NCBI RefSeq assembly: GCF_000003815.2
Contig: NC_049980.1
Span: 13,736,379 to 13,800,378, forward strand
DNA: 64,000 nucleotides
Source: Branchiostoma floridae
Taxonomy: Eukaryota > Chordata > Leptocardii > Amphioxiformes > Branchiostomatidae
Direction of reading: 5' to 3'
The translations under genes and the position numbers were made by a program. This document shows, piece after piece, positions 15,173-64,000 of the stretch (the stretch's first letter is position 1; each line of letters begins with the position of its first letter). Below the pieces are notes generated by a model that was not told where the DNA came from, made no database searches, and saw only the letters and a program-made list of their open reading frames with translations.

Positions 15173-15290
15173 CTCTCCAACCAGAGGTTAAGCTCCGGCT
15201 GGTTTTGTTTGTTTATTTGTTTTTAAACTTATTTTTAGTCGTTTTTATCGCGGGCTTATTTTGCATTGTATCTTGCTGTGTCCGACCGGA
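15173..15290 (+). repeat. Solitary left arm of the H hairpin repeat
   Basis: The order CTCCAACCAGAGGTTAAG, CTCCGGCTG, a T-rich tract, AGTCGTTTTTATCG, GGGCTTATTTTGCATTG and TATCTTG matches the left arm of the hairpin repeated at 47.7-63.4 kb. The right arm and the rest of the composite unit are absent, so H-related sequence is not confined to the cluster. Confidence 0.7.
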
Positions 15291-44311: not shown

Positions 44312-45809
44312 GTTGGGAGGGGCTTTTTCGAACTGATTGCACATTTTGAATCCCTACCCCACTGAATTCCATCCGTTTGTCGTTGTAGTTATCACATCAT
44401 CATCATCGCTAGACTGTACATGTACGTATAACACGACATTTTCTTATACGGGTTGTAGAACATCCTGCTAGCCTCGAGGCACCAGTTTTGTTGCATAGAC
44501 CTGGAAAATCAAAACAGGTGTTTTGATAACATCATCATAGCATAGCATATAAACTAGGCATGTTGGTTTATGATGACTTTACTCGCGGTATCTTGTTCTC
44601 TTTTGTCAGTTGATGATGATGCCCACTTCTTGCCCTTATGTACAAGTATCTGAAATTCCTAGGACAAAATATTTTTAGATCTGCTAAAGTACCAAGGATA
44701 GCCACCATGAGACCCAAAACATATCCATAGACAAAATATTGTCACAATCCATCCAGAAGTCTTTGATGTGATGATCCGATAAAACACAGAAACACACACA
44801 GACAAGCACTCCCCAACTATACCTTCATTTTCACTAGGTAATAATATTATATACAGGGTAAATTCATACACATTTCCTCACAAGCAGCGCCGATGATTGC
44901 CTTCCTGTCAAAATGTCAGGCACTAGCTATAGGTAAAACTGAAAATAACAAAGAGGGTCATAAGTTGCTCTTAGCAGCAGTATATAGAACAGGTTGTCAA
45001 ATCGAACAACTATTTCAGTATAAGATATTGCAACATATCACTGTAAAAACGCCAAGATCGACCATTTACAAAGTATAGGCACGTTGGAATGCACAATAAA
45101 ACCTGCCGTTTCTAGGCTGAGAAATGTTATGGCAATACTCTATTCTAATCAATCACCAGTTCAGGACCCTCTGTGTTTGTACTTTTTGCCCTTATCGTCA
45201 CACTGAGGTCACGAATAATTTCTTCGCGCGACACAGAACAATTTAGCAAACAGAATGGAAATAATCACCCTGACTAACGCTAGGCAACAAAGATCATTAG
45301 GAGACAACACCACATAGTGTACGTCGATAAAGGTTAGACATCCAAGTTATAAGACATGCCAAAAAGCAATTACTCAAGCAACTGGTTATGATTTTGGAAG
45401 CCAGACATTTCAGATAACATCCGTTTATCTTTCGTCAGTGACACTATATACTATATAGTATAGACGTAGACGAACGTCACTTGTTGCCTAAACACTTCAT
45501 CAACACATATACACAGCTTGTAGCCAAAATATGGTGAGGGTTAACATTTGCCGTGAAGAGTCTTGTTTCTCTACATGGTGGTCTTCACTGTGCGCGCGCT
45601 CAGGCGCTCATAAATTGTAAGTTTCAAGCCCCAGTCATTATGGGTGAAGGGTGGCTAGGCTAGCGGACACGAGATCGAGACTCACGCGTTCGATTCCTAG
45701 TATTCCTGACTAAACGTTGTGTCCTTGGGAAATACTATTGGGGGCCAAGTGTTGCAAAATTACTTACATATAAAGACAAGGATTTCCTCATATATAATGC
45801 ATCGATTAA
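44312..45809. other. Upstream flank of the unknown gene
   Basis: Contains the dispersed repeat at 45355-45450. Otherwise nothing recognisable. Confidence 0.4.
45355..45450 (+). repeat. Dispersed repeat, partner of 62104-62200
   Basis: TGCCAAAAAGCAATTACTCAA, then CCAGACATTTCAGATA, ATCCGTTTATC and TTCGTCAGTGACAC parallel ACGCCAAAAAATAGTTACTC, TCAGACGTTTCGGATAG, ATCCACTATC and TTCGTCAGTGACAC at 62104-62200. The second copy interrupts a P array, so it is mobile. Confidence 0.6.
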
Positions 45810-46099
45810 CACACTCATATATCTTCAGCTTTACACACACATATATATCTGGCAGGACAAACACATATATGTTCGTCTGCACACATACACATAACACATC
45901 GAAGCACACGCTCTTATATGTTTCTCTATACACATGCACATATACATGGTAGGACACACTCATATATCTTCAGCATTACACACACACATATATATGGTAG
46001 GACAAGCACATATATGTTCGTCTGCACACATACACATACACATCGAAGCACACGCTCTTATATGTTTCTCTATACTCATACACATATACATGGTAGGAC
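45810..46099 (+). repeat. Two tandem copies of a ~145-bp CA/TATA-rich unit
   Basis: The unit from CACACTCATATATCTTCAGC to CATATACATGGTAGGA occurs at 45810-45954 and 45955-46099 with about 10 differences. It continues as a decayed third copy to about 46240. It shares the CACATATAT alphabet of the P cassettes but not their spacers. Confidence 0.8.
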
Positions 46100-47018
46100 A
46101 CCAATATATATTTCAGCTTTAAAAGTACACACTCATTTGTTTCAGCTTCACACACACACTTGCGCACACAGACACACATATATATAGTATGTCACGTTCT
46201 TATATGTTTCGCTTTACACACACACACATAATTACGCACACAGACCCACTCACATATTTACATACATGATAACTCAGTCATAAATTTCTGAAAATTATTA
46301 CTGTCACAAGCTATGGTCATGATTCTTTAAAGTAGAAAGCTCTTACTAGTCGTAAAGAATTGGCGTCGGCTTAGGTCCCCTGTTTTGTTTGAGAAATTGA
46401 AGGGTAGAACTCCAGAAATGTTTGACAAATCTTCATAACTATTTGTATGTTCATAGCTTAATAAGTGATGATGGATATAAGCTCACGCTACATATGCAAA
46501 GAATGATCTACTTTGCATAATTGTGTGACTTTAGAACATGAAGAGAGTGAGATTAACTTTAATTGGAAACTTTGCAAATAAAGACATCATCTGCAAAATT
46601 GGTGTGTGCTGCAAATCATATATACGTATATGTATCATATAATTATACGTTTGGGCTGCAAACACTCCAACCGTTTGTCTTTTGTCGTCACCAATGATCA
46701 TAGAAAATATCGTCATGTTAGTCCAATGTTAAAGTATGCGGCAACGGTGTGGTGAGGACCAAGGTTAGCCTCTACCAGGCTTCGTAGATCGGTGGTCTAA
46801 ATGTAGCAATTGGACAAATAGAGTATTACTACACTAGGGGAGTCAGCCGGCCAGAACAATCATTTCCTCCGTAGGTCGCAAGCTGTTCCCTAGCCGGCTG
46901 TACTTCTCTGGCCGGTTTACCTATATTTGTTCCATCCTATGGTTTTCCGGCCAGCGACCTATGAAGTCTGGTATAGACTAGACTGTGGTACCAAACTTGC
47001 ATCAATGTTAAATGTTAA
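46100..47018. other. Left flank of the composite repeat cluster
   Basis: The stretch 46770-46870 (ACCAGGCTTCGTAGATCGG, GGTCTAAATGTAGCAATTGG, ACAAATAGAGTATTA, GGGGAGTCAGCCGGCCAG) is homologous to the ends of G segments at 48865-48925 and 52255-52345. CGTAGGTCGC and GCGACCTATG around 46875-46965 form an inverted pair. No gene. Confidence 0.55.
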
Positions 47019-47943
47019 GCGGCGTCACATATATCTGTGCTACAAAACATAGACATATGTGCGTGGTGAAGCACATATATATATGTTTTGCAGGCAGATG
47101 TATGTGTAACTGGTGCAGCACATATGTCTGCCACAGGACACAGATATATATGCGCTTCAGCACACACATATGTCTGCGTGCAAAACAGATATATATGTGT
47201 GATTCACCACACATATATGTGTGCCGTTGAAAACAGATATATATGCACTCCACTAAGCACATATGTCTGTCTTCGACGGCACACATATATGTGTGTGGTG
47301 AATCATATATATATCTGAATTTGACGGCACACATATGTGTGTATAAAGTAACACATATATCTGTTCTTTGCAGCACACATATATGTGTGGAAAGTCATAT
47401 ATAAAAAGGAGTCGAACCCAATAATCCAGGATCTAGAGTTAGCTTTTGACTAGTTTTAGAGTACAGTAGACACTTGTGATTTTGTATCTTACACTGTTCT
47501 TAATCTGTTATGTTAATTGCAATTAGCCCACGGGCAAGAACTTGCAATTAACTTGTCAATATATAAATCTCTGCTATTTTTGGAACATGGTTATGTGATT
47601 TAAAAATATATCTGATAATATACTATCACCGATATCTTCTTTAATGCACTGGCTCGCCCATCCATTCCAGCCGATTGGGAGTCGCACTACTCTCCAAGTA
47701 GAGGTTAGGCTCCAGCTGTTTTTTTAACGTTTTTTGGTCGTTTTTTATCGGACTCTCTATTTGTATCTTGTTAGGGTTTGACAACACAAGATACAATACA
47801 AATTAGAAAGCCCGATAAAAGCTATTTAAAAAAAGGTAAAAAAAAAACAGCCGGAGCCTAACCTCTGCTTGGAGAGGCCTGCAAGTTCACGGAAATATTC
47901 AACTTGCTCCTGCTAGCCTTTACTAAGGTGCCGTTTGCATATA
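47019..47943 (+). repeat. Composite unit 1: P array, L linker, H hairpin, truncated G
   Basis: P 47019-47402; unrelated insert 47403-47555 with a TTAATTGCAA/TTGCAATTAA inverted pair; L 47556-47689; H 47690-47876 (left arm CTCCAAGTAGAGGTTAGGC, right arm GCCTAACCTCTGCTTGGAG); G reduced to 67 bp. This is the outermost and most diverged P array, with several spacer substitutions. Confidence 0.85.
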
Positions 47944-48960
47944 TTATATCTGTGCTACAACACACAGATATATGTAAAGCGGCGTCACATATATCTGTGC
48001 TACAAAACATAGACATATGTGCGTGGTGAAGCACATATATATCTGTTTTGCACGCAGATATATGTGTGACGGGTGCAGTACATATATGTCTGCCACAGGA
48101 CACAGATATATATGTGCTTCCGCACACACATATGTCTGCGTGCAAAACAGATATATATGTGTAATTCACCACACATATATGTGTGCCGTTGAAAACAGAT
48201 ATATATGTGCTCCACTAAGCACATATGTCTGTCTTCGACGGCAAACATATATGTGCGTGGTGAATCACATATATATCTGTCTTTGACGGCACACATAATG
48301 TGTATAGAGTCACATATATATCTGTTCTTTACAGCACACATATATGTGTAGAAAATCATATATATTTGTAATTTTTGGAACATGTATATGTGATTTACAC
48401 ACATATATATCTGATAATATACTACTACCAATCTGTTTTTTAATGCTCTGGCTCGCCCATCCATTTCAGCCGATTGGGAGTCGCACTACTCTCCTAGCAG
48501 AGGTTAGGATCCGGCTGTTTTTAAAAACTTTTTTTCAGTCGTTTTTTATCGGGCTTTCTATTTTGTAGTGTATCTTGCAATGTTGTTAGGGTTTGACAAC
48601 ACAAGATACAATACAAAATAGAAATCCCGATAAAGATGACTAAAAAAATGTTAAAAAACAGCCCGAGCCTAACACTGCTTGGAGAGCAGAGACGCACGCG
48701 GTCGCGCTGAATCTAGGACCCAATTGTGTGTGTGGTTGTTTGTTTGTTTGTTTGTTTGTTTGTTTGTTTGTTTGTTTGAATCATTGTTTATTCATAAAAG
48801 CTCAAATCGACCTACAGGCCTGCAAGTTCGCGAGAATATTCAACTCGCTCCCGCTATCCTTTACCAGGCTCCTAGGATCGGTAATCAGTAGTCTAATAGT
48901 AGAAATTGGACAAATAGAGTTAATCTTTAGTACATTTCAGCCGATTGGGAGTCGCACTAA
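47944..48960 (+). repeat. Composite unit 2: reference copy
   Basis: P 47944-48365; L 48366-48489; H 48490-48686; G 48687-48960 with (TTTG)9 at about 48738-48777. In P, palindrome centres fall at about 48016, 48038, 48060, 48084, 48109, 48131, 48154, 48177, 48202, 48224, 48249, 48272, 48297, 48317, 48342 and 48363. The mean spacing is 23 bp, range 20-25. Cores alternate between CACATATATATCTG, CAGATATATGTG, CACATATATGTG and CACATATGTCTG. Confidence 0.9.
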
Positions 48961-49354
48961 TCTCAAGGCAGAGGTTATGCTACGGCTGTTTTTTTAAACG
49001 TTTTTTTTAGTCGTTTTTATCGGACTCTCTATTTTGTATTGTATCTTGTATTGTTAGGGTTTGACAACACAACATACAATACAAAATAGAAAGCCTGATA
49101 AAAACTATTTAAAAAAAGCTAAAAAAAACACAGCCGGAGCCTTACCTCTGCTTGGAGAGTAGAGACGCACGCGGTCGCGCTAAATCTAGGACCACACGGG
49201 GGAATTGCTTGTGTGTTTGTTTGTTTGTTTGTTTGTTTGTTTGTTTGTTTGAATCATTGTTTATTCATGAAAGCTCAATTCGGCCTGCAAGCCTGCAAGT
49301 TCACGGGAATATTCAACTTGCTCCTGCTAGCCTTTACTAAGGTGTCGTTTGCAT
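48961..49354 (+). repeat. Composite unit lacking P: H hairpin plus G only
   Basis: H 48961-49162 and G 49163-49354. The preceding G is joined directly to CCGATTGGGAGTCGCACTA, the last part of L, so the P array and most of L were deleted between units 2 and 3. Confidence 0.8.
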
Positions 49355-50387
49355 ATATTATATCTGTGCTACAGCACACAGNNNNNNNNNNNNNNNNNNN
49401 NNNNNNNNNNNNNNNNNNNNNNNNNNNNNNNNNNNNNNNNNNNNNNNNNNNNNNNNNNNNNNNNNNNNNNNNNNNNNNNNNACAAAACATAGACATATGT
49501 GCGTGGTGAAGCACATATATATCTGTTATGCACGCAGATATATGAGTGACTGGTGCAGCACATATATGTCTGCCACAGGACACAGATATATATGTGCTTC
49601 CACACACACACATGTCTGCGTGCAAAACAGATATATATGTGTCATTCACCACACATATATGTGTGCCGTTGAAAACAGATATATATGTGCTCCACTAACC
49701 ACATATGTCTGTCTTCGACGGCACACATATATGTGTGTGGTGAATCACATATATATCTGTCTTTGACGGCACACATATGTGTGTGTGCGGAAGCACATAT
49801 ATCTGTTCTTTGTATCACACATACATGTGTGGAAAATCATATATTTATATCTATCCATTATTTTTGGAACGTTTATGTGATTTCAAATATGTATCTGATA
49901 ATATACTACCATCAATCTGTTCTTTAATGCTCTGGCATCTCAATCGATTGGGAGTCGCACTTATCTGCAAGCAGAGGTTAGGCTCCGTCTGTTTTTAGAC
50001 GTTTTTTTTTGTCGTTTTTATCGGACTCTCTATTTTGTATTGTATCTTGTATTGTTAGGATTTGACAACACAAGATACTATACAAAATAGAAAGCCCGAT
50101 AAAAGCAATTTAAAAAAAAGCTAAAAAAACACACAGCCGGAGCCTAACCTCTGCTTGGAGAGTAGAGGCGCACGCTGTCGCGCTAAATCTAGGACCACAC
50201 GACGGAATTGCTTGTGTGTTTGTTTCTTTGTTTTTTTGTTTTTTGTTTTAATCATAGTTTATTCATGAAAGCTCAAATCGGCCTGCAGGCCTGCAAGTTC
50301 ACGGGAATATTCAACTTGCCCCTGTTAGCCTTTACTAAGGTGTCGTTTGCATATATTATATCTGTGCTACAACACACAGATATACAA
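49355..50387 (+). repeat. Composite unit 3
   Basis: P 49355-49850 (gap 49382-49481 inside its first sites); L 49851-49962, with a shortened CTGGCATCTCAATCGATTGG junction; H 49963-50165; G 50166-50387, whose TTTG tract has decayed to T-rich sequence. Confidence 0.85.
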
Positions 50388-50711
50388 ATAAAATCTTTAT
50401 TGACACGACAAAAGTACAGCGACTTTCGTAAGGTCTACATATATAACACTACTCACAGTACAGCTAAACAGACATATATGGATATCTATAGGTATGGATA
50501 CATTAACATAAAGGGTCTAGCATGTCATTTACACTATTGGTTCTACGGTATTAACAATTGTGGATATATTTACCTACTTTTACACAGTGAGATTTATCGC
50601 CTCCCAATATGTAGTTAAATTTATCTATCGAACAGAGAGTAGCAAAGTCTTTAGAGCAAGCGGAAAGTAATGTGAACAGCTCTGTGCGTTTATCATCATA
50701 TCGAGAACAAT
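50388..50711 (-). mobile_element. LINE-like 3'-end insertion inside a P array
   Basis: P sequence stops at CACACAGATATA and resumes at TATGTGATGCGGCGTCAC, which are contiguous in other copies. The ~324-bp insert ends on the minus strand in GTCGTGTCAATAAAGATTT, a poly(A)-signal-like LINE or SINE tail. No coding remnant was recognised. Confidence 0.6.
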
Positions 50712-51465
50712 TCTATGTGATGCGGCGTCACATATATCTGTGCTACAAAACATAGACATATGTGCGTGGTGAAGCACATATATATCTGTTTTGCACACAG
50801 ATATATGTGTATATGTGTAATTCACCACACATGTGTGTGCCGTTGTAAACAGATATATATGTGCTCCACAAAGCACATATGTCTGTCTTCGACGGCACAC
50901 AGATATGTGCGTGGTGAATCATATATATATATATCTTTGACGGCACACATAGTGTGTATAGAGTCAGATATATTATCTGTTCTTTCCAGCACACATATAT
51001 TTTTGGAGAGTCATATAAATATCTTTTATTTTTGGAACATGTGTATGTGATTTACACATATATATCTGATAATATACTACCACCAATCTGTTTTTGCTCT
51101 GGCTCGCCCATCCATTTCAGCCGATTGGGAGTCGTACTACTCTCCAAGCAGAGGTTAGGCTACGACTGTTTTTTTAACGTTTTTAAGTCGTTTTTTATCG
51201 GGTTTTCTATTTTGTATTGTATCTTGTATTGTTACGCTAAAAACAGCCTGAGCCTAACCTCTGTTTGGAGAGTAGAGACGCACGCGGTCGCGCTAAATCT
51301 TGGACCAACGGGGGAATTGTTTGTGTGTTTGTTTGTTCATTTGTTTGTTTGAACCATTGTTTATTCATGAAGTTCAAATTGGCATGCAGGCCTGCAAGTT
51401 CGCGGAAATATTTGATTCGCTCCTGCTAGCCTTTACTAGGCTTTACTAGGTATCGTTCGCATCTA
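50712..51465 (+). repeat. Composite unit 4 (internally deleted)
   Basis: P 50712-51010 lacks about four central sites: the GCACACAGATATATGTG site runs straight into TATGTGTAATTCACC. L 51011-51138. H 51139-51275 is reduced to about 137 bp by loss of the inner arms. G 51276-51465. Confidence 0.8.
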
Positions 51466-52565
51466 TCTGTGCTACATTACACAGACATATGTGCGTGGTG
51501 AAGCAAATATATATCTGTTTTGCACGCAGATATATGTGTGACTGGTGCAGCACATATATGTCTGCCATAGGAAACAGATATATATGTGCTTCAGCACACA
51601 CACATGTCTGCGAGCAAAACGGATATATATATGTGATTCACCACACATATATGTGTACCGTTGAAAACAGATATATATGTGCTCCACTAAGCACATATAT
51701 GTGTGTGGTGAATCGCATTTATATCTGTCTTTGACGGCACACACATGTGTGTATATAGTCACATATATATATATGTTCCTTGCAGCACGCATATATGTGT
51801 GGAAAGTCATATATATATTTGTTATTTTTGGAACATGTATATGTGATTTACACATATATATCTGATAATATACTACCACCAATCTTTTTTTTTAATGCTC
51901 TGGCTCGCCCATCCATTTTAGCCGATTGGGAGTCGTACTACTCTCCAAGCAAAGGTTAGGCTACGGCTGTTTTTTAAACGTTTTTTGGTCATTTTTTATC
52001 GGACTATCTATTTTGTATTGTATCTTGTATTGTTAGGGTTTGACAACAAAATACAATACAAAATAGAAAAACCGATAAAAACTATTTTTAAAAAAGCTAA
52101 AAAAAAAGTCGGAGCCTAACCTCGGGGGAATTGTTTGTGTGTTTGTTTGTTTGTTTGTTAGTTTGTTTGAACCATTGTTTATTCATGAAAGCTCACATCG
52201 GCTTGCAGGCCTGCAAGTTCGCGGGAATATTCAACTCGCTCCTGCTAGCCTTTACTAGGGCTCCCCGGATTGGTGATCGGTAGTCTAGTTGTAGAATTTA
52301 AACAAATAGAGTCAATAGTACGCTAGAGGAGTCGGCCGGCAAGAGGATTTATATCCTCAAGTCATTTTTAAAAAGAGATTAAATTCTACATGTCTGGAGC
52401 TGAAGAACAAAAACAGGTGGATAGCTAGAGCAGTTGTGGTCTAATATTCTCAAATCTTCGATTAACGTGATGGGAAAATTTTAAATCAAAATCCAGCCTG
52501 GCCTTCAGTTACGTGGTGACCTCTTATGACCTCCTTTGTTTGGCCAAACTGCTAGTAATATTTAT
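51466..52565 (+). repeat. Composite unit 5 with an extra 245-bp segment
   Basis: P 51466-51815; L 51816-51940; H 51941-52123; G 52124-52320; extra segment 52321-52565 (TCGGCCGGCAAGAGGATTTA to TTTGGCCAAACTGCTAG). The same extra segment recurs inverted at 62756-63040. Confidence 0.85.
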
Positions 52566-53257
52566 CGTTTACATATATCCGTGCTACAACACACAGATAT
52601 ATGTTATGCGGCGTCACATATATCTGTGCTACAAAACATAGACATATGTGCGTGGCGAATCACATATATATATGTTTTGCACGCAGACATGCGTGACTGG
52701 TGCAGCACATATATGTCTGCCACAGGACACAGATATATATGTGCTTCCGCACACACATATGTCTGCGTGCAGAACAGATATATATGTGTAATTCACCACA
52801 CATATATGTGTGCCGTTGAAAACAGATATATATGTGCTCCACTAAGCACATATGTCTGTCTTCGACGGCACACATATATGTGTGTGGTGAATCACATATA
52901 TATCTGTCTTTGACGGCACACATATGTGTGTATAGAGTCACATATATATCTGTTTTTTTCAGCACACATTTATGTTTGGAAAATCATATATATATCTATC
53001 TGTTATTTTTTGAACATGTTTATGTGATTTCAAATATATATATCTGATAATATACTACCACCGATCTGTTTTTTAATGCTCTGGCTCGCCCATCCATTAT
53101 AGCCGATTGCGAGTCGGACTACTCTCCAAGCAGAGGTTAGGCTCCGCTGTTTTTTAACGCTTTTCAGTCGTTTTTTATCGGACTCTCTATTTTGTATTGT
53201 ATCTTGTATTGTTAGGGTTTGACAACACAAGATACAATACAAACTAGAAAGGCCGAC
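52566..53257 (+). repeat. Composite unit 6, first part
   Basis: P 52566-52990, L 52991-53120 and the left arm plus loop of H (53121-53257). H is broken at AGAAAGGCCGA by the insertion that follows. Its right arm reappears at 54303-54328 and 58747-58797. Confidence 0.85.
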
Positions 53258-54302
53258 ATTTGCTTAGGAGCAAATACAGCATATTGCAATCCATCTTCAT
53301 CCTTGAAAAAATCCCAAAATTCAACAATTTGAAGTAATAGTACTGTGGGCACTTGTCCTACACACCTTCATGCCGAGTTTTTGGTCATTTGGTTTCATTA
53401 CAAGGGCATATATGACAAAAATATACATTTTTAGACAAAAATGGCTAAAAATCCCAAAATAACTCATTTTATAAGTGCTCTATGAAGAAAGTGTTGATGG
53501 GGTCCTGTTGTCATATGTCCAATGCACCTCTATACTAAAATTCAGGCCATTTGGTTTACATACAAGGGTAAAGGGGCCAAAAATATACATTTTTAGTCAA
53601 AAATGACTGAAAACCCCAAAATAACTAATTTCTGAAGTGATCTATGAAGAAAGTGTCAATGGGGTCCTGTGAGCATATGTTCAATGCACCTCTGTACCAA
53701 ATTTCAGGTCATTTGGTTTCTATACAAGGTCATAGGAGCAATAAATATACATTTTTAGTCAAAAATGGCCAAAAAACCTAAAATAACTCATTTTTGGAGT
53801 TAACAATGAATAAAGCGTTGATGGGGTTCTGTGGTCATATGTCAAACGCACCTATGTGCCAAATTTCAGGTCATTTGGTTTTAATACAAGGGCATAGGAG
53901 CCAACAATATACATTTTTAGTAAAAAATGGCCAAAAACCCTAAAATAACTAATTTTTGAAGTGATCTATGTAGAAAGTGTTGATGGTTTTCTGTGCTCAT
54001 ATGTCTAATGCACCTCTGTACCAAATTTCAGGTCATTAGCTTGTAATACCAGGGCACAGGGGCCCAAAATATACATATTTTGTCTAAAAATGACCAAAAC
54101 CCCTAAATATCATAAATTCTAAGGCCTCTATCAAGAAAGTGAAAAAAAACGCCTGGGGGTATTTGCTATTTCTACCACCCTGCCAAATTTCAGCTCATTT
54201 GGCCAAAAAATGAAAAAATTAATCCCATTTGAAGATTTGACACGAGAAGAGACAAAGGAAAAACAGTATATTGCATCCATACTATGTATGGATTGCAATA
54301 TA
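53258..54302. mobile_element. Insertion 1 in H: element with a 161-bp internal tandem array
   Basis: It begins with a small hairpin (ATTTGCTTAGGAGCAAAT) and TATTGCAATCCAT. It ends with the inverse ATGGATTGCAATA. Between about 53310 and 54130 a unit of about 161 bp containing CAAATTTCAGGTCATTTGG and AATATACATTTTTAG repeats five times. Flanking H sequence is duplicated: AACTAGAAAGGCCGA before and AAATAGAAAGTCCGA after, a 14-15-bp imperfect direct repeat. No coding capacity. Confidence 0.65.
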
Positions 54303-54782
54303 AATAGAAAGTCCGATTAAAACTATTTAAAACTAGAAAGGCCGACATTTGCTTGGGTGCAAATACAGCATATTTCAGCCATACCCATTCCCACGCAACA
54401 TTGGACTGTTCCAAGTCACCCCTGCGCAAAAGTGCAATATTTAAACTGTAAGTTATCCCCAAAAGAGAACTAATATTGTGAATTGATTCCAGGTCAAAAC
54501 AGAGCTTGCCCAATATGAACCGGGCCCACATGGAAGAATATAATCTTCCACAGGAGCGCCTATGCATAACTGATTGGCTTTTAGAATTGCGGCAGCTCCT
54601 ATTTTTCCGAGAGTGAAAAAAAAACGCATCTTCCATTCAGAAGATTTTCATCATGAAATTACATGACGCCATCCAACAATTTCCACGTCGATAACTAGGT
54701 CTAAGTACCGTCATAATCTCCTTGTGATGTGGGTACATTTATTATTGCATTGAACTTTTTTTAATCAAGTAGGGCATACGTT

Positions 54783-55170
54783 TTAATATGTGTACAATTC
54801 CTTCATACCAGTTAATTCATCCCACATGTATAATACTAGATTTTCTGTATCTAACAACTTCAGACTACCTAAACCTAAAACAAACAGTGGAAAACGTACC
54901 TTCTTGTACCGAGCAATTATGCTCTGGAACTCATTGCCATCTGACATTAAGGCACTGTGTACATTGTCCAGTTTTAAACAAGCCATCTCAAACATTGTCA
55001 TCTAGACCTTTGACCTCTAGACACTGTGCTCTATTGTAAATACTTTGTGATTGTTGTATTTTTTAAAATATATGTATTCATGTTGATTGTCATGTTGATT
55101 CATATAGATTGAACCTTGGAAGATTAGCCCGTAAGGGCTAAAAGGTTTCTTAATAAACAATAAATAAACA
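54783..55170 (+). mobile_element. Non-LTR retrotransposon 3' end, family 2, copy 1
   Basis: The frame 54790-55005 reads MYNSFIPVNSSHMYNTRFSV, then KTNSGKRTFLYRAIMLWNSL and FKQAISN. It is the same post-RT segment as the element at 26.4 kb, but a different family. A terminal hairpin AGCCCGTAAGGGCT and AATAAACAATAAATAAACAA tail follow. It is 5'-truncated. Confidence 0.78.
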
Positions 55171-55705
55171 ACAATAATTGTCAAGCAGGTGCAGGTGTTG
55201 TGTACTTTAGTAGTAGGAGTGTGTTGTTGTTTTTTTTAAGCTAAAAACTTCAATCTTCTTGTTTTGTATGAGCCATTACATAAACGGAGACGTCTCGAAT
55301 TTTTACAAGAATTTTACCACCCTGTCGCTTCATTTCTTTTCTGAAAAATCCCAGGACCAACAAGTTAACTTGATTTGGCTTTATGTATATATTTCATTTT
55401 CCTTCGAATTCTTTGTTAAGTATATGTCCTGCATACCACTGTTAAATTGTTTTACTTTGTATGCAATCAGCCATCGGACGTAATCTTGTCTGAGTGTTGT
55501 AATTTCCTGCTCGTAGCGTGCGAGACCTGGAGGATAGGAGTTTCTACCTTGTTCGGGGGTTTCTTTTCGGAGGTCAGTGGTGATACTCTGGTACTAAGAG
55601 TGTTTNNNNNNNNNNNNNNNNNNNNNNNNNNNNNNNNNNNNNNNNNNNNNNNNNNNNNNNNNNNNNNNNNNNNNNNNNNNNNNNNNNNNNNNNNNNNNNN
55701 NNNNN

Positions 55706-55925
55706 AACACACAGATATATGTGAGGCAGCGTCACATATATCTGTGCTACAAAACACAGACATATGTGCGTGGTGAAGCACATATATATCTGTTTTGCAC
55801 GCAGATATATGTGTGGCTGGTGCAGCACATATATGTCTGCCATGGGAAACAGATATATATGTGATTCAGCACACACATATGTCTGCGTCCAAAACGTTTA
55901 TATATGTGTCATTCACCACACATAT
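55706..55925 (+). repeat. P array fragment
   Basis: It emerges from a gap with ACACACAGATATATGTGAGG and runs through the standard spacers CGTGGTGAAG, TTTTGCACG, GGCTGGTGCAG and GCCATGGGAAAC before ending at TTCACCACACATATTGACGG. About nine sites are visible. Confidence 0.8.
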
Positions 55926-56215
55926 TGACGGTAATATTCAACTGTTTTAACCTACGTCACTTTAACGTTGTGGATGTTTGAAAATAAAAATAAAGAAATC
56001 CCAAACCTGGGTTTCCATGCTCTAGTCACAAGACAAAAGAGTTGTGTATATAAAATGAAACAATAAACCTTTAGAAAAAATTGGCCGTATTTTTAGAAAA
56101 AAATGCCTGGATGTTTAACAAAATCACAAGAAAAGAAAACTTTAAAGTATTGAATTGGTCTCTTTCTATCAAAAGACATAAAATGGGATTTGTTGAGCAA
56201 AGAAAAAAACACGTT

Positions 56216-56310
56216 GTCACAACTGGGATTCGAACTCACATCTGCGGAAACTGACTGTGTGTTGAACGCATGCAGAACTTTACCATTAGACCGCTCGGCC
56301 ATCGTGTAAC
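56216..56310 (-). pseudogene. tRNA-like sequence (Ser/Leu-type, long variable region)
   Basis: On the minus strand GTTACAC opens the acceptor stem and TTGTGAC closes it with six of seven pairs. A-box-like TGGCCGAGCGGTCTAATGG and B-box-like GAGTTCGAATCCCAG are well preserved, and the length (95 nt) suits a type II tRNA. The T-stem and anticodon stem pair poorly, so it is more likely a pseudogene or tRNA-derived SINE head than a working tRNA. Confidence 0.5.
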
Positions 56311-56398
56311 AGTTGCGCAACTGAGGTTTAGAAGGGTCCTAAGAAGGCCGGTTAACTTGACCTACTAAACGATCCATGGAACAAACCGCTTCTATCAA

Positions 56399-56470
56399 GA
56401 TTCCTCACAGGAACTTGCGGCCCCTGGATCTAAAGAGTGAAGACAGCTCTACGACTGAGCTACGCGAATC
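56399..56470 (-). pseudogene. Second tRNA-like sequence (72 nt)
   Basis: The minus strand carries a near-consensus D-arm, TAGCTCAGTCGTAGAGC, and 5' GATTCGC facing 3' GAGGAATC. The T-arm is degenerate (CGCAAGTTCCTGTG), and the anticodon loop lacks the invariant T33 in the best alignment. It sits 88 bp from the other tRNA-like copy on the same strand. Confidence 0.35.
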
Positions 56471-56529
56471 GGCCAGCCAGAGGAGATTCAATATCAAGTG
56501 TTGCCATTGACATGGGGATCAAAATACAG

Positions 56530-56920
56530 AATATGTGATGTGGAGTCATATATATGTTGCTCCAAACACAGATATATATCTGATGTGGCGTCACANNNNN
56601 NNNNNNNNNNNNNNNNNNNNNNNNNNNNNNNNNNNNNNNNNNNNNNNNNNNNNNNNNNNNNNNNNNNNNNNNNNNNNNNNNNNNNNNNNNNNNNNACACA
56701 GATATATGTGTGATGTGGCGTCACATATATCTGTGCCCCAAACACATATATATGTGTGATGTGGCGTCACATATATATGTGCCCCAAACACAGATATATA
56801 TGTGATGCGGCGTCACATATATGTGTGCTCCAAACACAGATATATGTGTGATGCGGCGCCACATATATATGTGCTACAAACACAGATATATGTGTGGTTC
56901 GGTGTCACACATGTATGTCA
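56530..56920 (+). repeat. P-type array, 46-bp subfamily B (gap inside)
   Basis: Here the array is a simple tandem of about 46 bp: GATGYGGCGTCACATATAT plus GTGCYCCAAACACAGATATA. GGCG phases at about 56718, 56764, 56809 and 56855. Each unit holds two palindromic cores, so it is a dimer of the 23-bp spacing. A 100-N gap (56596-56695) interrupts it. Confidence 0.85.
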
Positions 56921-56930
56921 CAGTAGAGAT

Positions 56931-57100
56931 TGCGATTCAGAACAATCGCCGATTGTCCTAGGAGAGATCGCGATCGGAGTTTGTCCTGGCTAGGACAAAC
57001 TGCGCATGCGATCGGGATCTGTCCCAGGACAATCTGCGATTCTGTTAGTACAGATTGCAATATCAATCGGGATCTGCCCTAGGACAAACTCCGATACAAA
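56931..57100. repeat. Cluster of palindromic TTGTCCTAGGA / AGGACAA motifs
   Basis: AGTTTGTCCT and AGGACAAACT are perfect inverses around GGCT. CGATTGTCCTAGGA, GATCTGTCCCAGGACAATC and GATCTGCCCTAGGACAAAC recur within 120 bp, and CTCCTAGTAG/ATTGTCCTACTAG appears again at 57603-57640. Possibly the ends of another element. Confidence 0.6.
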
Positions 57101-58330
57101 CTCAAATGATGCTAAGTTAAAAGAAACAGCAATACTTTGATAAACCATGACTACTGAAGGATACCAGACTTGTGTCTGTACTGATTAGGTGTGGAATTGT
57201 AAGTAATATCTTGAAACTGTGATTGATATTTGGGCATCTGTTTGATGCCTTTACAGTTGTAATTCTTCTTCCAAATTTGTGAAATGATTCAGTATATGTT
57301 TACTGACTATTGAAATGTACTAAATCGTTGTGAAACTGTAATATCTTGACACCTTAAAATTTGCATTCTGACACATTGTTTGATCACCTTTTGTCATCTT
57401 TCACATATCATTGGATGTTTGCCACTACAGTACTTTATCAGAAATTATTTTATCAGAAAACATACTCGCATGTAATTTATCCGTTACAAATTACAAACTA
57501 ATTCACCTAGAACAGTTAGTAACTCTGAATGCAGGTATGCTTAACACTGGTTGCAATGTTAGTTGCGCAGTGATTCATTACATTTTTATCTAATCAGAAT
57601 TTCTCCTAGTAGAATTGGAGATTGTCCTACTAGAATCGCTGTAAACTTTTGTGGATGACTAGGTGCAAGCTGAAACGTGTGATGTTCNNNNNNNNNNNNN
57701 NNNNNNNNNNNNNNNNNNNNNNNNNNNNNNNNNNNNNNNNNNNNNNNNNNNNNNNNNNNNNNNNNNNNNNNNNNNNNNNNNNNNNNNAAAGTTTACGTCA
57801 AAAAAGAACAACAACACTAACGTTAGAAGTACCCACATTTGTTTGGGAAAAAATACATGCATTCTCGCCACTGACACTGTCAAACTTACGTATCAAAACT
57901 AAACGCAAACTGTCCAATTTTCCCGCGTTTTCTGCCAAGTAACATTTTCTCGATTGTCTCAACTAACCCCCAAAGTCAAATCTGCCAAAAATGATTGATA
58001 GTGCCATGCGGAATGTTGGTAAATTCATCGACACAGACTTGTATTCTGACGTTCAATGCACGCGTACCGTCCGCTACCGCTCAAATGACCCTGTCTGAAC
58101 TCCAAATCCTCGCAAACTACAATTTCAAACCGGGCACAGGGTAACATATGACCACTGTAAGGCTGTAATATGCATCTGTTTGTGTATAAACGGGATTGCA
58201 AGGCCCCGCTTATGAATATTAACTAGCATTCGCCTTTCTCGTCGCTGATTGGCTGGCGTCCATAAAGTAATTAACTCTCGCTCTCCCCAGACCGCTGGCA
58301 CCTGTGGGCTCTGGGGTCACGGGAGTTCAC
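57101..58330. other. Repeat-cluster interior, nothing recognised
   Basis: Includes the gap 57688-57787. 58200-58330 is GC-richer than its surroundings but has no supportable exon. Confidence 0.35.
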
Positions 58331-58746
58331 AGGGAGAAGGCCGAAAGAAACCAATTTCCCCTCAGAAAGTGCAGAAATTAATAATTTGAAATTGGTTCAT
58401 GCCAAAAATTTTACTTGGATCATTTTACCAACTATCTAATGCCTATCTACACCAAATTTAAGGTCATTCCACTGTAATTCAATGGTACAGGGGGTCAAAA
58501 TATACCGTTGTGGTCAAAACGTGACCTTTAAACTTCAATAAAATCATTTTAGAGGCAGATATGAAAAAAATGAGAAAAACACACCTCGGTATTGACCCAC
58601 TCTACTTTTGTACCAAATTTCAGGTCATTCGGTCCCGGAACGACGGAGATGATTCGATTTGAAGATTTGACAGGAGAAAGAAAGAAAGAAAGAAACATTA
58701 CGAATACAATATATTTCACCATACCATATATGGTATGGCTGAAATA

Positions 58747-58974
58747 TAAAAAGCTAAAAAAAAACAGCCGGAGCCTAACCTCTGCTTGGAGAGTAGAGAC
58801 GCACGCGGTCGCGCTAAATCTAGGACCACACGGGGGAATTGCTTGTTTTTTTGTTTGTTTCTTTGAATCATTGTTTATTCACGAAAGCTCAAATCGGCCT
58901 GCATGGCCTGGAAGTTCACGGGAATATTCAACTTGCTCCTGCTAGCCTTTACTAAGGTGTCGTTTGCATATATT
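58747..58974 (+). repeat. Composite unit 6, displaced remainder (H right arm and G)
   Basis: AAAAGCTAAAAAAAAACAG and CCGGAGCCTAACCTCTGC are the right arm of H whose left arm ends at 53257. G follows at 58798-58974, with GCACGCGGTCGCGCTAAATC and TTTATTCACGAAAGCTCAAA. Confidence 0.8.
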
Positions 58975-59751
58975 ATATCTGTGCTACAACACACAGATAT
59001 ATGTGATGCGGCGTCACATATATCTGTGCTACAAAACATAGACATATGTGCGTGGTGAAGCACATATATATCTGTTTTGCACGCAGATATATGTGTGACT
59101 GGTGCAGCACATATATGTCTGCCACAGGACACAGATATATATGTGCTTCCGCACACATATATGTCTGCGTGCAAAACAGATATATATGTGTAATTCACCG
59201 CTCATATATGTGTGCCGTTGAAAACAGATATATATGTGCTCCACTAAGCACATATGGCTGTCTTCGACGGCACACATATATATGTGTGGTGAATCACATA
59301 CATATCTGTCTTTGGCGGCACACATATGTGTGTATAGAGTAACATATATATATGTTCTTTACAGCACATATATATGTATGGAAAATCATATATATATCTG
59401 TTATTTTCGGGACATGTAAATGTGAATTACACATATATATCTGATAATATACTACCACCAATCTGTTTTTTAATGCTCTTGCTAATGATCCATTTCAGCC
59501 GACTGGGAGTCGCACTACTCTCCAAGCAGAGGTTAGGCTCTGGCTGTTTTTTTTTAACGTTTTTGGTCGTTTTTTATCGGGCTTTCTATTGTGTATTGTA
59601 TCTTTTATTGTTAGGGTTTGACAACACAAGATAAAATATACAAAATAGAAAGCCCGATAAAAACGATTAAGAAAACGCTACAGACAGCCGAGCCTAACCT
59701 CTGCTTGGAGAATAGAGACGCACGCGGTCGCGCTAAATCTTGGACCCTCGG
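58975..59751 (+). repeat. Composite unit 7: most intact P array
   Basis: P 58975-59395 with all 16 or so sites; L 59396-59516; H 59517-59719; G start to the gap at 59752. In this copy TTTTGCACG (59075-59083) and its exact inverse CGTGCAAAA (59168-59176) are symmetric about 59125.5. GTGCCG (59212-59217) and CGGCAC (59268-59273) are symmetric about 59242.5. Confidence 0.9.
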
Positions 59752-59851
59752 NNNNNNNNNNNNNNNNNNNNNNNNNNNNNNNNNNNNNNNNNNNNNNNNN
59801 NNNNNNNNNNNNNNNNNNNNNNNNNNNNNNNNNNNNNNNNNNNNNNNNNNN

Positions 59852-60522
59852 TACTGTGACATATGTGATGCCGCATCACACATATATCTGTGTTTTGAGA
59901 GCATATATATATGTGAAGCCGCATCGCAAATATATTTGTGTTTTTAGCACATATATATGTTAAGCCAGATCACACATATATCTGTGGCTGTAGCACATAT
60001 ATATGTGACGCTCACATCACACATATATCTGTGTTTGTAGCACAGACATATGTGACGCCGCATCACACATATATCTGTGTTTGCAGCACATATATATGTG
60101 ACGCCGCATCACACATATATCTGCGTGTTGTAGCACAGATATAATATATGCAACGATACCTTAGTAAAGGCTAGCAGGAGCAAGTTGAATATTCCCGTGA
60201 ACTTGCAGGCCTGCAGGCCGATTTCAGCTTTCATGAATAAACAATGGTTCAAACAAACAAACACACACACAAGAAATTCCCCCATGTGGTCCTAGATTCA
60301 GCGCGACCGCGTGCGCCTCTACTCTCCAAGCAGAGGTTAGGCTCCGGCTGTTTTTTAGCGTTATTTTAGGCGTTTTTATCGGGCTTTCTATTTTGTATTG
60401 TATCTTGTGTTGTCTAAACCTAACAATACAAGATTTAATACAAAATAGAGAGTCCGATGAAAAACGACTTAAAAAAGTTTTTTAAAAAAAGGCGGGAGCC
60501 CAACCTCTGCTTGGAGAGTAGT
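59852..60522 (-). repeat. Inverted unit: 46-bp subfamily B array, G and H
   Basis: P-type 59852-60150 repeats GCCGCATCACACATATATCT and GTGTTTGTAGCACATATATA in ~46-bp steps. G follows inverted (60151-60319, CTAGCAGGAGCAAGTTGAAT to CAAACAAACAAACACAC), then H (60320-60522) runs into a gap. This marks the switch from + to - orientation of the cluster. Confidence 0.85.
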
Positions 60523-60759
60523 NNNNNNNNNNNNNNNNNNNNNNNNNNNNNNNNNNNNNNNNNNNNNNNNNNNNNNNNNNNNNNNNNNNNNNNNNNNNNN
60601 NNNNNNNNNNNNNNNNNNNNNNNNNNNNNNNNNNNNNNNNNNNNNNNNNNNNNNNNNNNNNNNNNNNNNNNNNNNNNNNNNNNNNNNNNNNNNNNNNNNN
60701 NNNNNNNNNNNNNNNNNNNNNNNNNNNNNNNNNNNCTTTAAAATCCTCACTAGCCACGA

Positions 60760-61150
60760 ACCACAAAATGTGTACAATTCCTTCATACCAGTTAATTCAT
60801 CCCACATGTATAATACTAGATTTTCTGTATCCAACAACTTCAGACTACCCAAACCTAAAACAAACAGTGGAAAACGTACCTTCCTGTACCGAGCAATTAT
60901 GCTCTGGAACTCATTGCCATCTAACATTAAGTCACTGTGTACATTGTCCAGTTTTAAACAAGCCATCTCAAACATTGACATCTAAACCTCTGACCTCTAG
61001 ACACTGTGCTCTATTGTAAATACTTTGTGATTGTTGTATTTAAAAAAATGTATGCATTCATGTTCATTGTCATGTTGATTCATGTTGATTGAACCTTGGA
61101 AGATTAGCCTGTACTGAGGGCTAAAAGGTTTCTTAATAAACAACAATAAA
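60760..61150 (+). mobile_element. Non-LTR retrotransposon 3' end, family 2, copy 2
   Basis: Nearly identical to 54783-55170: the frame 60770-60985 differs at a few residues only, and the same 3' hairpin region and AATAAACAACAATAAACAAC tail follow. The close identity suggests recent insertion or co-duplication with the cluster. Confidence 0.8.
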
Positions 61151-61355
61151 CAACTCTATACACACATATGTGTGCCGTCAAAGACAGATATATATGTGAT
61201 TCACCACACACATATATGTGTGCCGTCGAAGACAGACATATGTGCTTAGTGGATCACATATATATCTGTTTTCAACGGCACACATATATGTGTGGTGAAT
61301 TACACACATATATCCGTTTTGCACGCAGACATATGTGTGTGCGGAAGCACATACA
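61151..61355 (-). repeat. Inverted P array fragment
   Basis: Reads inverted from the TATAGAGT spacer site through GACGGCAC, GGTGAATCAC, GCCGTCGAAGACAG, TTCAACGGC and TTTTGCACGCAG to GCGGAAGCACATA, then is cut by a different element. Confidence 0.85.
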
Positions 61356-61508
61356 CTCGGCACAAAAAGTTTGGAATATCAACTTTGGTATACCATATTT
61401 CCGTTATTTATGCATCAATTTCACTGTATTATATATCAATAGAAAGCTTATGTGATTTTCTTTCCTATGGTATCAAACTTATTATTATGTAAACACAGAA
61501 ACGTGCGT
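61354..61508 (+). mobile_element. Candidate Tc1/mariner-like terminus
   Basis: P sequence is cut at TA followed by CACTCGGCACAAAAAGTTTG, which resembles termini of Tc1/mariner elements. The rest runs into a gap, so the other end and any transposase are not visible. Confidence 0.35.
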
Positions 61509-61718
61509 NNNNNNNNNNNNNNNNNNNNNNNNNNNNNNNNNNNNNNNNNNNNNNNNNNNNNNNNNNNNNNNNNNNNNNNNNNNNNNNNNNNNNNNNNNNN
61601 NNNNNNNNNNNNNNNNNNNNNNNNNNNNNNNNNNNNNNNNNNNNNNNNNNNNNNNNNNNNNNNNNNNNNNNNNNNNNNNNNNNNNNNNNNNNNNNNNNNN
61701 NNNNNNCGCGTGCGTCTC

Positions 61719-62103
61719 TACTCTCAAAGCATTGGTTAGGCTCCGGCTGTTTGTTTTTTTTAGCTTTTTTTAAATAGTTTTATCGGGCTTTCTATTTTGT
61801 ATTGTATCTTGTGTTGTCAAACCCTAACAATACAGGATACAATATAAAATAGAGAGTCCGATTAAAGCTTTAAAAAAAAAGCTTTAAAAAAAACAGTCGG
61901 AGCCTAACCTCTGCTTGGAGAGTAGTGCGACTCCCAATCGGCTGAAATGGATGGGCGAGCCAGAGCATTAGAGAACAGATTTGTGGTAGTATATTATCAG
62001 ATATATATTTGAAATCACATAAACATGTTCCAAAAATAACAGATTTTTATATATATATATGATTTTCCACACATATATGTGTGCTGCAAAGAACAGATAT
62101 ATG
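61719..62103 (-). repeat. Inverted H hairpin, L linker and start of a P array
   Basis: H 61719-61926 with arms ending GGCTCCGGCTG and CAGTCGGAGCC; L inverted 61927-62045 (CCAATCGGCTGAAATGG, AGTATATTATCAG); P sites begin at 62046 and are cut at 62103 by the dispersed repeat shared with 45355-45450. Confidence 0.85.
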
Positions 62104-62434
62104 TGTTACGCCAAAAAATAGTTACTCAATATAATATGGTTTTGAAACGGTCAGACGTTTCGGATAGAATCCACTATCCTTCGTCAGTGACACTGAAGAG
62201 ATCTGGAAGAAACAGGTCTTTTATTACTCTAACTANNNNNNNNNNNNNNNNNNNNNNNNNNNNNNNNNNNNNNNNNNNNNNNNNNNNNNNNNNNNNNNNN
62301 NNNNNNNNNNNNNNNNNNNNNNNNNNNNNNNNNNNNNNNNNNNNNNNNNNNNNNNNNNNNNNNNNNNNNNNNNNNNNNNNNNNNNNNNNNNNNNNNNNNN
62401 NNNNNNNNNNNNNNNNNNNNNACAGGAGTTAAAA
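62104..62434. mobile_element. Insertion in the inverted P array (partly gap)
   Basis: Left part 62104-62235 is the partner of 45355-45450 and holds GGATAG...CTATCC. A gap covers 62236-62421. P resumes with the TATACACACATATG site. Confidence 0.55.
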
Positions 62435-63181
62435 GATATATGTGCTACTTTATACACACATATGTGTGCCGTCAAAGACAGACATATGTGCTTAGTGGAG
62501 CACATATATATCTGTTTTCAACGGCACACATATATATCTGTTTTGCACGCAGACATATGTGCGTGCGGAAGCACATATATATCTGTGTCCTGTGGCAGAT
62601 ATGTATGTGCTGCACCAGTCACACATATATCTGCGTGCATAACAGATATATATGTGCTTCACCACGCACATATGTCTATGTTTTGTAGCACAGATATATG
62701 TGACGCCGCATAACATATATCTGTGTGTTGTAGCACAGATATATGTAAACGATGAATATTACTAGCAGTTTGGCCAAACAAAGGAGGTCATAAGAGGTAA
62801 CTGAAGGCCAGGCTGGATTTTGATTAAAAATTTTCCCATTACGTTAATCGAAGATTTGAGAATATTAGACCACAACTGCTTTAGCTAGCCACCTGTTTTT
62901 GTTCTTCAGCTCCAGACATGTAGAATTTAATCTCTTTTTAAAAATGACGTGAGGATATAAATCCTCTGGCCGGACGACTCCTTTAGCGTACTATTGACTC
63001 TATTTGTTTAAATTCTACTACTAGACTACCGATCACCAATCCGGGGAGCCCTAGTAAAGGCTAGCAGGAGCGAGTTGAATATTCCCGCGAACTTGCAGGC
63101 CTGCAAGCCGATGTGAGCTTTCATGAATAAATAATGGTTCAAACAAACAAACAAAGAAACAAACACACAAACAATTCCCCC
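62435..63181 (-). repeat. Inverted composite unit with the 245-bp extra segment
   Basis: P 62435-62755 (two sites deleted between CAACGGC and GTTTTGCACG), extra segment 62756-63040 (CTAGCAGTTTGGCCAAACAA to GGCCGGACGACTCC), G 63041-63181. It is the inverted homologue of 52124-52965. Confidence 0.85.
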
Positions 63182-63845
63182 GAGGTTAGGCTCCGGCGGG
63201 TTGTTTTTTTTTAGCTTTTTTAAAAATAGTTTTTAACGGGCTTTCGATTTTGTATTGTATCTTGTTGTCAAACCCTAGCAATACAAGATACAATACAAAA
63301 TAGAGAGTCAGATAAAAAAACGACTAAAAAACGTTAAAAAACAGTCGTAGCCTAACCTCTACTTGGAGAGTAGTGCGACTCCCAATCGGCTGATATGGAT
63401 GGGCGAGCCAGAGCATTAAAAACAGATTGGTGGTAGTATATCATCAGATATATATGTGTAATTCACATATACATGTTCCAAAAATAACAGATACATATGA
63501 TTTTCCACACATATATGTGCGATACAAAGAACAAATATATATGTGACTCTATACACATTATGTGTGCCGTCAAAAGCAAATATATATGTGTAATTAACCA
63601 CACACATATCTGTGTGCCGTCGAAGACAGACATATTGGCTTAGTGGAGCACATATATATCTGTTTTCAACGGCACACATATATGTGTGGTGAATTACACA
63701 TATATCTCCGTTTTGCACGCAGACATATGTGTGTGCGGAAGCACATATATATCTGTGTCCTGGGACAGACATATATGTGCTGCATCAGTCACACATATGT
63801 CTGCGTGCAAAACAGATATATATGTGCTTCACCACACACATATAT
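63182..63845 (-). repeat. Inverted H, L and P of the last unit
   Basis: H 63182-63374; L 63375-63490; P 63491-63845, ending abruptly at CACCACACACATATATATGG. It is the inverted homologue of 51466-52123. The final 155 bp of the window (63846-64000) show nothing recognisable. Confidence 0.85.
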
Positions 63846-64000
63846 ATGGCGTGAAAACAAAAAAACTAGTTGGACTCACCACACATACTAGGTCGCTGTA
63901 CAATACCGATATATAGAGCTTCGATTCAGCCTCTTGGGCAGACCTGTTCCATAGGGCACCAAGCGCGACTTCAAAATTACGCGGCATAGCTTGTTTTCCT

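Follow-up and report, generated by a model that had tools for sequence, protein, structure and literature searches.

Palindrome cassettes in the amphioxus genome as a section of the inverted arms of a probable foldback-type DNA transposon

What kind of genetic unit is the ordered string of AT-rich palindromes that recurs in a 64,000-nucleotide stretch of the genome of the lancelet Branchiostoma floridae (contig NC_049980.1, here C2:13736379-13800378)? This whole stretch, referred to as the window, contains a cassette termed P, for which an earlier note based on the letters alone had considered three origins: the terminal region of a foldback-type element, a protein-binding scaffold, and a source of hairpin RNA. 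By combining a dissection of the window with searches of the genome (513.4 Mb, 431 contigs), P is best explained as the part with internal repeats in the very long inverted arms of a cut-and-paste DNA transposon of the foldback type, a reading to which we give a probability of roughly 85%. Inverted termini and target-site duplications speak for the first of the three proposals. The element belongs to a large and unusual family, and P is not a free satellite, nor is it a new structure that stands by itself.

The ends of the element carry this reading. P does not stand free; it is carried in the arms of an element that begins at window position 45736 with the terminus TATTGGGGGCCAAG..., a position that replaces the feature start of 47019 given in the earlier note. 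Upstream of the first P copy, the homology between loci extends for another 1.27 kb and ends at TATTGGGGGCCAAGTGTTGCAAAATTAC..., beyond which the flanks at C2, C14, and C11 differ. The search for termini and target-site duplications (TSDs) that the earlier note had called for yielded both inverted termini and 7-bp duplications. The element on C2 occupies 13782114-13813245, with the same terminus inverted at 13813245, 31.1 kb from the left end; its left border reads GAAATAC followed by TATTGG, and its right border CCAATA followed by GAAATAC. A second P-bearing element, C11b (C11:6537229-6604581, 67 kb), is flanked on both sides by GCGTGAC. A clear 7-bp duplication was thus present in three of the four end pairs read (C2, C11b, and a relative on C1), and the fourth, a relative on C15 that lies in a C run, is compatible with one. 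Identity between the C2 element's two ends is 99.2% over 516 bases and 99.3% over 755 bases (about 1.27 kb in all), whereas the terminal inverted repeat (TIR) is 97.7-98.3% identical between loci over 750 bases. Because its ends are more than 99% identical, the C2 insertion is probably recent, although gene conversion would look alike, and it may be typable in populations.

The orientation of the P segments follows the two arms. All nine segments on the left of the C2 element are on the plus strand and all seven on the right are on the minus strand, and in C11b, whose P-bearing arms span about 16-17 kb each, 13 of 14 left segments are plus and 14 of 15 right segments are minus. Long TIRs, a target-site duplication, and tandem repeats inside the TIRs, three of the features by which foldback elements are recognised, were all found. 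On C14, one end was found within the 30 kb read, which holds a 4,351-base N run.

The palindrome arrays were found where the earlier note had placed them, and several details of its description could be refined. It had counted at least nine arrays or fragments; module mapping gave 13 P segments in the window, nine on the plus strand (47009-59457) and four on the minus strand (61153-63843), with a 70-base tail piece among the 13. The alignment that it had proposed was made with 48 near-complete copies (46 distinct) chosen from a list of P copies, and the resulting consensus, decomposed by hand, consists of 17 cores with a centre-to-centre distance of 23.4 +/- 0.9 bp, in agreement with the approximately 16 palindromes at 23-bp spacing noted before. 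The 48 copies indeed keep one spacer order, except where steps have been deleted or inserted in some of them. The core palindromes are present as described, although many are merely half-palindromic and the exact ones measure 6-16 bp (6 being the search minimum) instead of 12-16 bp; one core, CACATATATATCTG, occurs 89 times in the window with at most one mismatch, against 0.03 expected. Some spacers on one side of a dyad match, as reverse complements, spacers on the other side (TTTTGCACG / CGTGCAAAA), so that the spacers are not all independent; they partly reflect inverted duplication.

P opens with a unit resembling a 46-bp satellite, which also occurs free-standing in the window and once more in inverted form. 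The cassette recurs together with a tail, a palindromic miniature inverted-repeat transposable element (MITE), and a head, and in the left part P copies start 0.7-1.5 kb apart, so that P has been amplified together with the ~190-bp MITE as a unit of ~0.7-1.5 kb. The contrast with a satellite drawn in the earlier note is overdrawn, as P itself was amplified within a unit of ~1 kb and its fixed order probably reflects the youth of the copies. The MITE is found in most units of window 47697-53256 and 59525-63363, with an extra partial match at 15218-15275.

A search of the whole assembly, also suggested by the earlier note, gave at least 135 matches to a 382-base P, all of them on C2, C11, and C14 among those scored (40 of the 97 first-look candidates, which makes 135 a lower bound). 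The copies are concentrated in one region of ~170 kb on C11. Within the mapped stretches, which comprise the window, 23 of 24 fetched 10-kb pieces, and three short pieces, 116 P segments were distinguished, of which 61 exceed 300 query bases and 55 fall short of that, where copies split by a piece border are counted twice. The 24th piece (L028, C2:13800379-13810378), directly past the window, consists entirely of N, which leaves the C2 element without readable sequence in its right middle part. Near-complete copies are mostly 85-98% identical to one reference, with a minimum of about 80%.

A 26-base terminus pattern, with at most two mismatches, had 76 hits in the genome (44 forward and 32 reverse), against none for the reversed control. 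Neighbouring ends no more than 80 kb apart were convergent in 28 cases, divergent in one, and on the same strand in five. The first 102 bases of the terminus were found at 12 places (all 12 candidates scored), namely two on C2, six on C11, one each on C14 and C9, and two on C10 that are diverged. The first 401 bases of a C10 relative, with 40 of 78 candidates scored, gave no fewer than 43 places, and many of these are plus/minus ends 10-43 kb apart. This terminus is common to about two dozen relatives with convergent ends, 6-25 kb in size (for example, C1:34670820-34683305 and C3:17219003-17235569); 24 such pairs span 6.0-25.4 kb with a median of 15.9 kb, a range that excludes the two P-bearing elements as well as a pair of 43 kb on C3. 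Both ends were read in two relatives of 10.5 and 12.5 kb, which lie on C1 and C15 in one order or the other of size. GTCCTAC was found at both sides of the C1 relative, and a C run on both sides of the C15 relative, which is consistent with a duplication but does not set its length. The copy on C9 showed no P in the 3.7 kb read past its terminus, and its homology stops after 0.9 kb. The two diverged relatives at C10:17579147 and C10:17617205 (terminus TATGGGGGCC) are separated by 38 kb, point the same way, and have similar flanks; they are probably a segmental duplication. A viral collection searched with a 27-base terminus pattern contained no exact match, and the literature, judged by titles and abstract openings, offered no work on this element and none joining foldback elements and amphioxus.

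The terminus and P are both periodic. The window terminus showed a z-score of 11.0 at 48 bp and 7.6 at 24 bp, while P showed 10.0 at 24 bp and 8.2 at 48 bp; the 48-bp subterminal period is thus twice the spacing in P. The 48-bp period recurred in relatives, with z 8.6 for the left end of the C1 relative and z 9.9 for the right end of the C15 relative, whose left end had its peak at 47.

Several observations weigh against the proposed transposon and have to be set beside this evidence. No transposase was recognised for the family, five Pfam domains being present in none of the 28 intervals tested (hAT and rve were not searched). In C1 and C15 the 24-bp repeat is absent (z -3.3 and -3.5 at 24), where CACA runs alone are spaced 23-25 bp. 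The cores of P are not better conserved than its spacers (minor-allele frequency 0.0375 vs 0.0409, p 0.16), and the count of P copies covers 40 of the 97 first-look candidates. A further cluster, C11a (C11:6434479-6511889), has one end that abuts an N run, so that a duplication, if present, is unreadable, and its left end reads GTTTGG, not TATTGG; its interior holds two further plus ends behind N runs. Finally, the arm layout of the C2 and C11 elements rests partly on scaffolding, as their interiors are broken by N runs. In the window, runs of 100 N are located at 49382, 55606, 56596, 57688, and 59752, and longer runs at 60523 (213 N), 61509 (198 N), and 62236 (186 N), because of which the order and orientation of pieces to the right of 49.4 kb are uncertain.

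A first alternative is that P is locus-bound, as an ordinary higher-order satellite or a segmental duplication, spread by recombination among C11, C2, and C14, with the terminus as a mere block edge. The clustering of copies in the ~170-kb region of C11 and the variable number of units would agree with this, as would the nearly identical host flank that, by eye, precedes the terminus at C9:16027420-16027719 and at the left of C11a (C11:6434177-6434476), which may be an assembly duplication or a copied site. Such an origin is nevertheless unlikely, since at C2, C14, and C11 unique flanks give way to the same terminus with single-base precision, neighbouring ends are convergent far more often than divergent, and 7-bp duplications are clear in three of four end pairs and compatible in the fourth. 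A second alternative, that the phased dyads are kept by selection for binding of a transposase or a host factor, is doubtful as it stands and yet the most credible of the rivals. It is favoured by the 48-bp period common to the window terminus and diverged relatives, and multiple subterminal binding sites have been proposed for Galileo and other transposons (PMC3573991). The cores, however, show no excess conservation over the spacers, the relatives have no 24-bp repeat, and the commonest class of indels in P is 2 bp (22 of 56, counted per copy). Transposase binding is retained as a possible, putative function of the P repeats.

Given its folding, P might be a source of hairpin RNA, each copy yielding a long, double-stranded transcript for silencing by small RNAs. 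One complete copy folded much better than its dinucleotide shuffles (z -12.9 as DNA and -14.3 as RNA, the latter better than all 100 shuffles), and the consensus folds into two adjacent large hairpins of 46 and 55 pairs. The observed fold energy was reached by 6 of 200 permuted-and-flipped controls, 7 of 200 permuted controls, and none of 200 letter-shuffled controls; the contribution of spacer order to the fold is modest. Pairwise comparison of the spacers, for which the cores were crudely defined, gave a weak result (3 of 256 comparisons at p<0.005 vs 1.3 expected). In spite of the strong fold, covariation was absent in the 46 distinct copies, with two-sided change in 1 of 101 pairs vs 1.1 expected and 96.0% of cells paired in both hairpins vs 96.1% in shuffles, and no Rfam match was found within 45000-64000, which makes a hairpin-RNA source quite improbable. 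Open frames of 120-178 residues run through many P copies on both strands (for example, 48000-48485 on the minus strand), and might be taken to encode a protein of 8-residue repeats. This idea is hardly credible and was rejected, as only 3 of the 56 indels are multiples of 3, and openness on both strands would be expected of a sequence poor in TAA, TAG, and TGA. Because covariation, core excess, and coding signal are all absent, no constraint is apparent on hairpins, cores, or frame since the copies arose, and the fixed spacer order has probably been kept because the copies are fairly young or recently amplified.

For the foldback-type transposon, the question of classification follows. Domain searches were evaluated in 28 intervals, that is, 27 convergent pairs of ends plus the C11a cluster. 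The P-superfamily domain (PF21787; the superfamily is not to be confused with the cassette) was matched 3 times across the genome (10 of 10 candidates scored), DNA polymerase B of Polintons (PF03175) 13 times (9 of 9), the KDZ domain (PF18758) 12 (21 of 21), the MULE domain (PF10551) 27 (71 of 71), and rve_3 (PF13683) 22, and none of these matches fell within the intervals; rve (PF00665) was not searched. These negatives are not proof, because a domain may escape notice through introns, divergence of the protein, or N runs. A P-superfamily origin, suggested by the 7-bp duplication and the Galileo-like arms, was on this ground set aside, as were assignments to KDZ, MULE, Polinton, and rve_3. 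For rva_4 (PF24764), one of 13 genome matches lies inside the intervals, a weak one in the C11b core. Within the C15 relative, two frames tried in C15:6446000-6447500 (1.5 kb, part N) had no Pfam match. A frame in the C11b core (6565714-6566319, minus strand) with weak helix-turn-helix (HTH) matches below the cut-off was also considered as a transposase and rejected; its only other genome match (4 of 4 candidates scored) is at C6:26773069 (52%), outside the intervals, and no relative was found in the viral collection. The HTH frame and the rva_4 piece at C11:6561464 are apparently an intron-bearing gene of the C11b copy only. The element is therefore best described as a TIR transposon with foldback-type arms, unassigned to any superfamily; it works like Galileo and Tetris, with membership in neither shown.

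Polintons (Mavericks) are large TIR elements of a similar size. Their duplications are 6 bp long (PMC10045372), as opposed to 7 bp here, and no DNA polymerase B domain was present in the intervals. Closer likenesses are offered by Galileo of Drosophila, a foldback-like member of the P superfamily with long, internally repetitive TIRs and 7-bp duplications, whose non-autonomous copies are mostly TIR and whose tandem repeats have been proposed as secondary transposase sites (PMC3573991). The element described here shares the repetitive long TIRs and the 7-bp duplication; Galileo TIRs, however, reach about 1.26 kb, against about 16-17 kb for each P-bearing arm of C11b, and the RNase H domain of its superfamily is absent from the terminus intervals. 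Duplications of ~8 bp are reported for the P superfamily (PMC3706591), and the 7 bp found here agrees with a range of 7 or ~8 bp. Tetris of Drosophila virilis, an apparently non-autonomous foldback element, resembles the present one in that tandem repeats within its TIRs expand into satellite-like arrays, but it has TIRs of at most 1,735 bp, repeats of ~220 bp, and duplications of 8-10 bp (PMC4079207), in contrast to units of ~1 kb and 7 bp here.

Other groups share single traits. IS3EU and GingerRoot elements have TA..TA termini (PMC10045372), with which TATTGG..CCAATA agrees, and a duplication that is usually 6 bp, differing from the 7 bp of this element, which also has no rve_3 in the terminus intervals. 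IS3EU elements of rust fungi end in TAYGG..CCRTA, a pattern fitted by the TATGG of the C10 relative, whereas the main terminus is TATTGG; in the same source, Kyakuja (KDZ) has 7-bp duplications in two fungal families, with CA..TG termini and no TIRs (PMC12730594). The duplication length of Kyakuja is thus alike, whereas the present element has TIRs and no KDZ domain in the terminus intervals. Dada-U6 and Dada-U1 are described as having no TIRs (PMC3706591), which separates them from the present element.

P may have arisen as follows. A transposase supplied by relatives would move the element, and the phased 48-bp subterminal repeat might originally have been a transposase-binding array. Such an array could have grown dyads by inverted duplication, giving rise to P, which would then have multiplied as the ~1-kb unit through unequal exchange inside the arms, with the copies afterwards drifting under no detectable constraint. 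This suggests a stepwise route by which the subterminal repeat of a transposon can turn, within the arms of the element itself, into an ordered and complex satellite rich in dyads, and it brings to light a family of large transposons that could not be placed in a superfamily. A bolder view, of rather low probability, takes this family, with its terminus TATTGGGGGCCAAG.., duplications of 7 bp, a length of mostly 10-25 kb, and a subterminal period of 48 bp, as an undescribed superfamily of large animal DNA transposons with its own type of transposase. The P-bearing elements would then be its foldback derivatives, with arms ~10 times longer than the TIRs of Galileo and Tetris, site arrays turned into a dyad-rich ~1-kb satellite, and, in C11b, ~34 kb of intron-bearing, host-like cargo. 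The features of the C2 element are listed in Table 1.

Table 1. Features of the P-bearing element on C2 (window positions unless a contig is given)
Feature	Position	Strand	Remarks
Left TSD copy GAAATAC	45729..45735	.	7 bp
Right TSD copy GAAATAC	C2:13813246-13813252		outside window
Element terminus TATTGGGGGCCAAGTGTTGCAAAATTA...	45736..46250	+	48-bp subterminal repeat of CACATATAT-type cores
TIR part without array	46251..47005	+	
P cassette, first copy (P1)	47009..47403	+	
P cassette with tail	47945..48425	+	
Palindromic ~190-bp MITE	48496..48690	+	CTCTCCAAGCAGAGG ends; carried in unit
P cassette	49482..49911	+	5' part lost to N run
P cassette	50729..51082	+	internal deletion
P cassette	51457..51878	+	one core+spacer step deleted
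P cassette, complete	52561..53060	+	fold z -12.9 (DNA), -14.3 (RNA) over 52574-53060
P cassette, left half	55706..55925	+	
46-bp satellite	56701..56900	+	resembles first P unit
P cassette, complete	58974..59457	+	
46-bp satellite, inverted	59861..60121	-	
P cassette fragment	61153..61353	-	opposite arm
P cassette fragment	61984..62109	-	opposite arm
P cassette	62436..62756	-	opposite arm
P cassette	63431..63843	-	opposite arm
More MITE copies	47697, 48968, 49970, 51948, 53129, 59525	+	
More MITE copies	51137, 60318, 61717, 63185	-	palindrome, so orientation loose

Other sequences were noted beside or within the elements. Three open frames at window 42583-44353 (minus strand) are a probable host gene, and the nearest of them ends about 1.4 kb from the insertion; two of the three frames were scanned and had no Pfam match. 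A 162-bp tandem repeat of 4.5 copies at window 53383-54109 is separate from P. Between the arms of C11b, about 34 kb (C11:6554500-6588000; L021-L024 and L038) contain no P and are almost unmatched in the other stretches read, and would form a host-like block, provided that the assembly is correct at its 100-N joints (6558882 and 6560289). In this core, the HTH frame and the rva_4 integrase piece share a strand, and another piece resembles an AAA ATPase (E 0.014, below the cut-off). In the C11 clusters, a reverse-transcriptase-like frame (L016:572-1480; RVT_1, E 9e-16) and a second one that is similar to it by eye (L024:6055-6753) are probably nested long interspersed nuclear elements.

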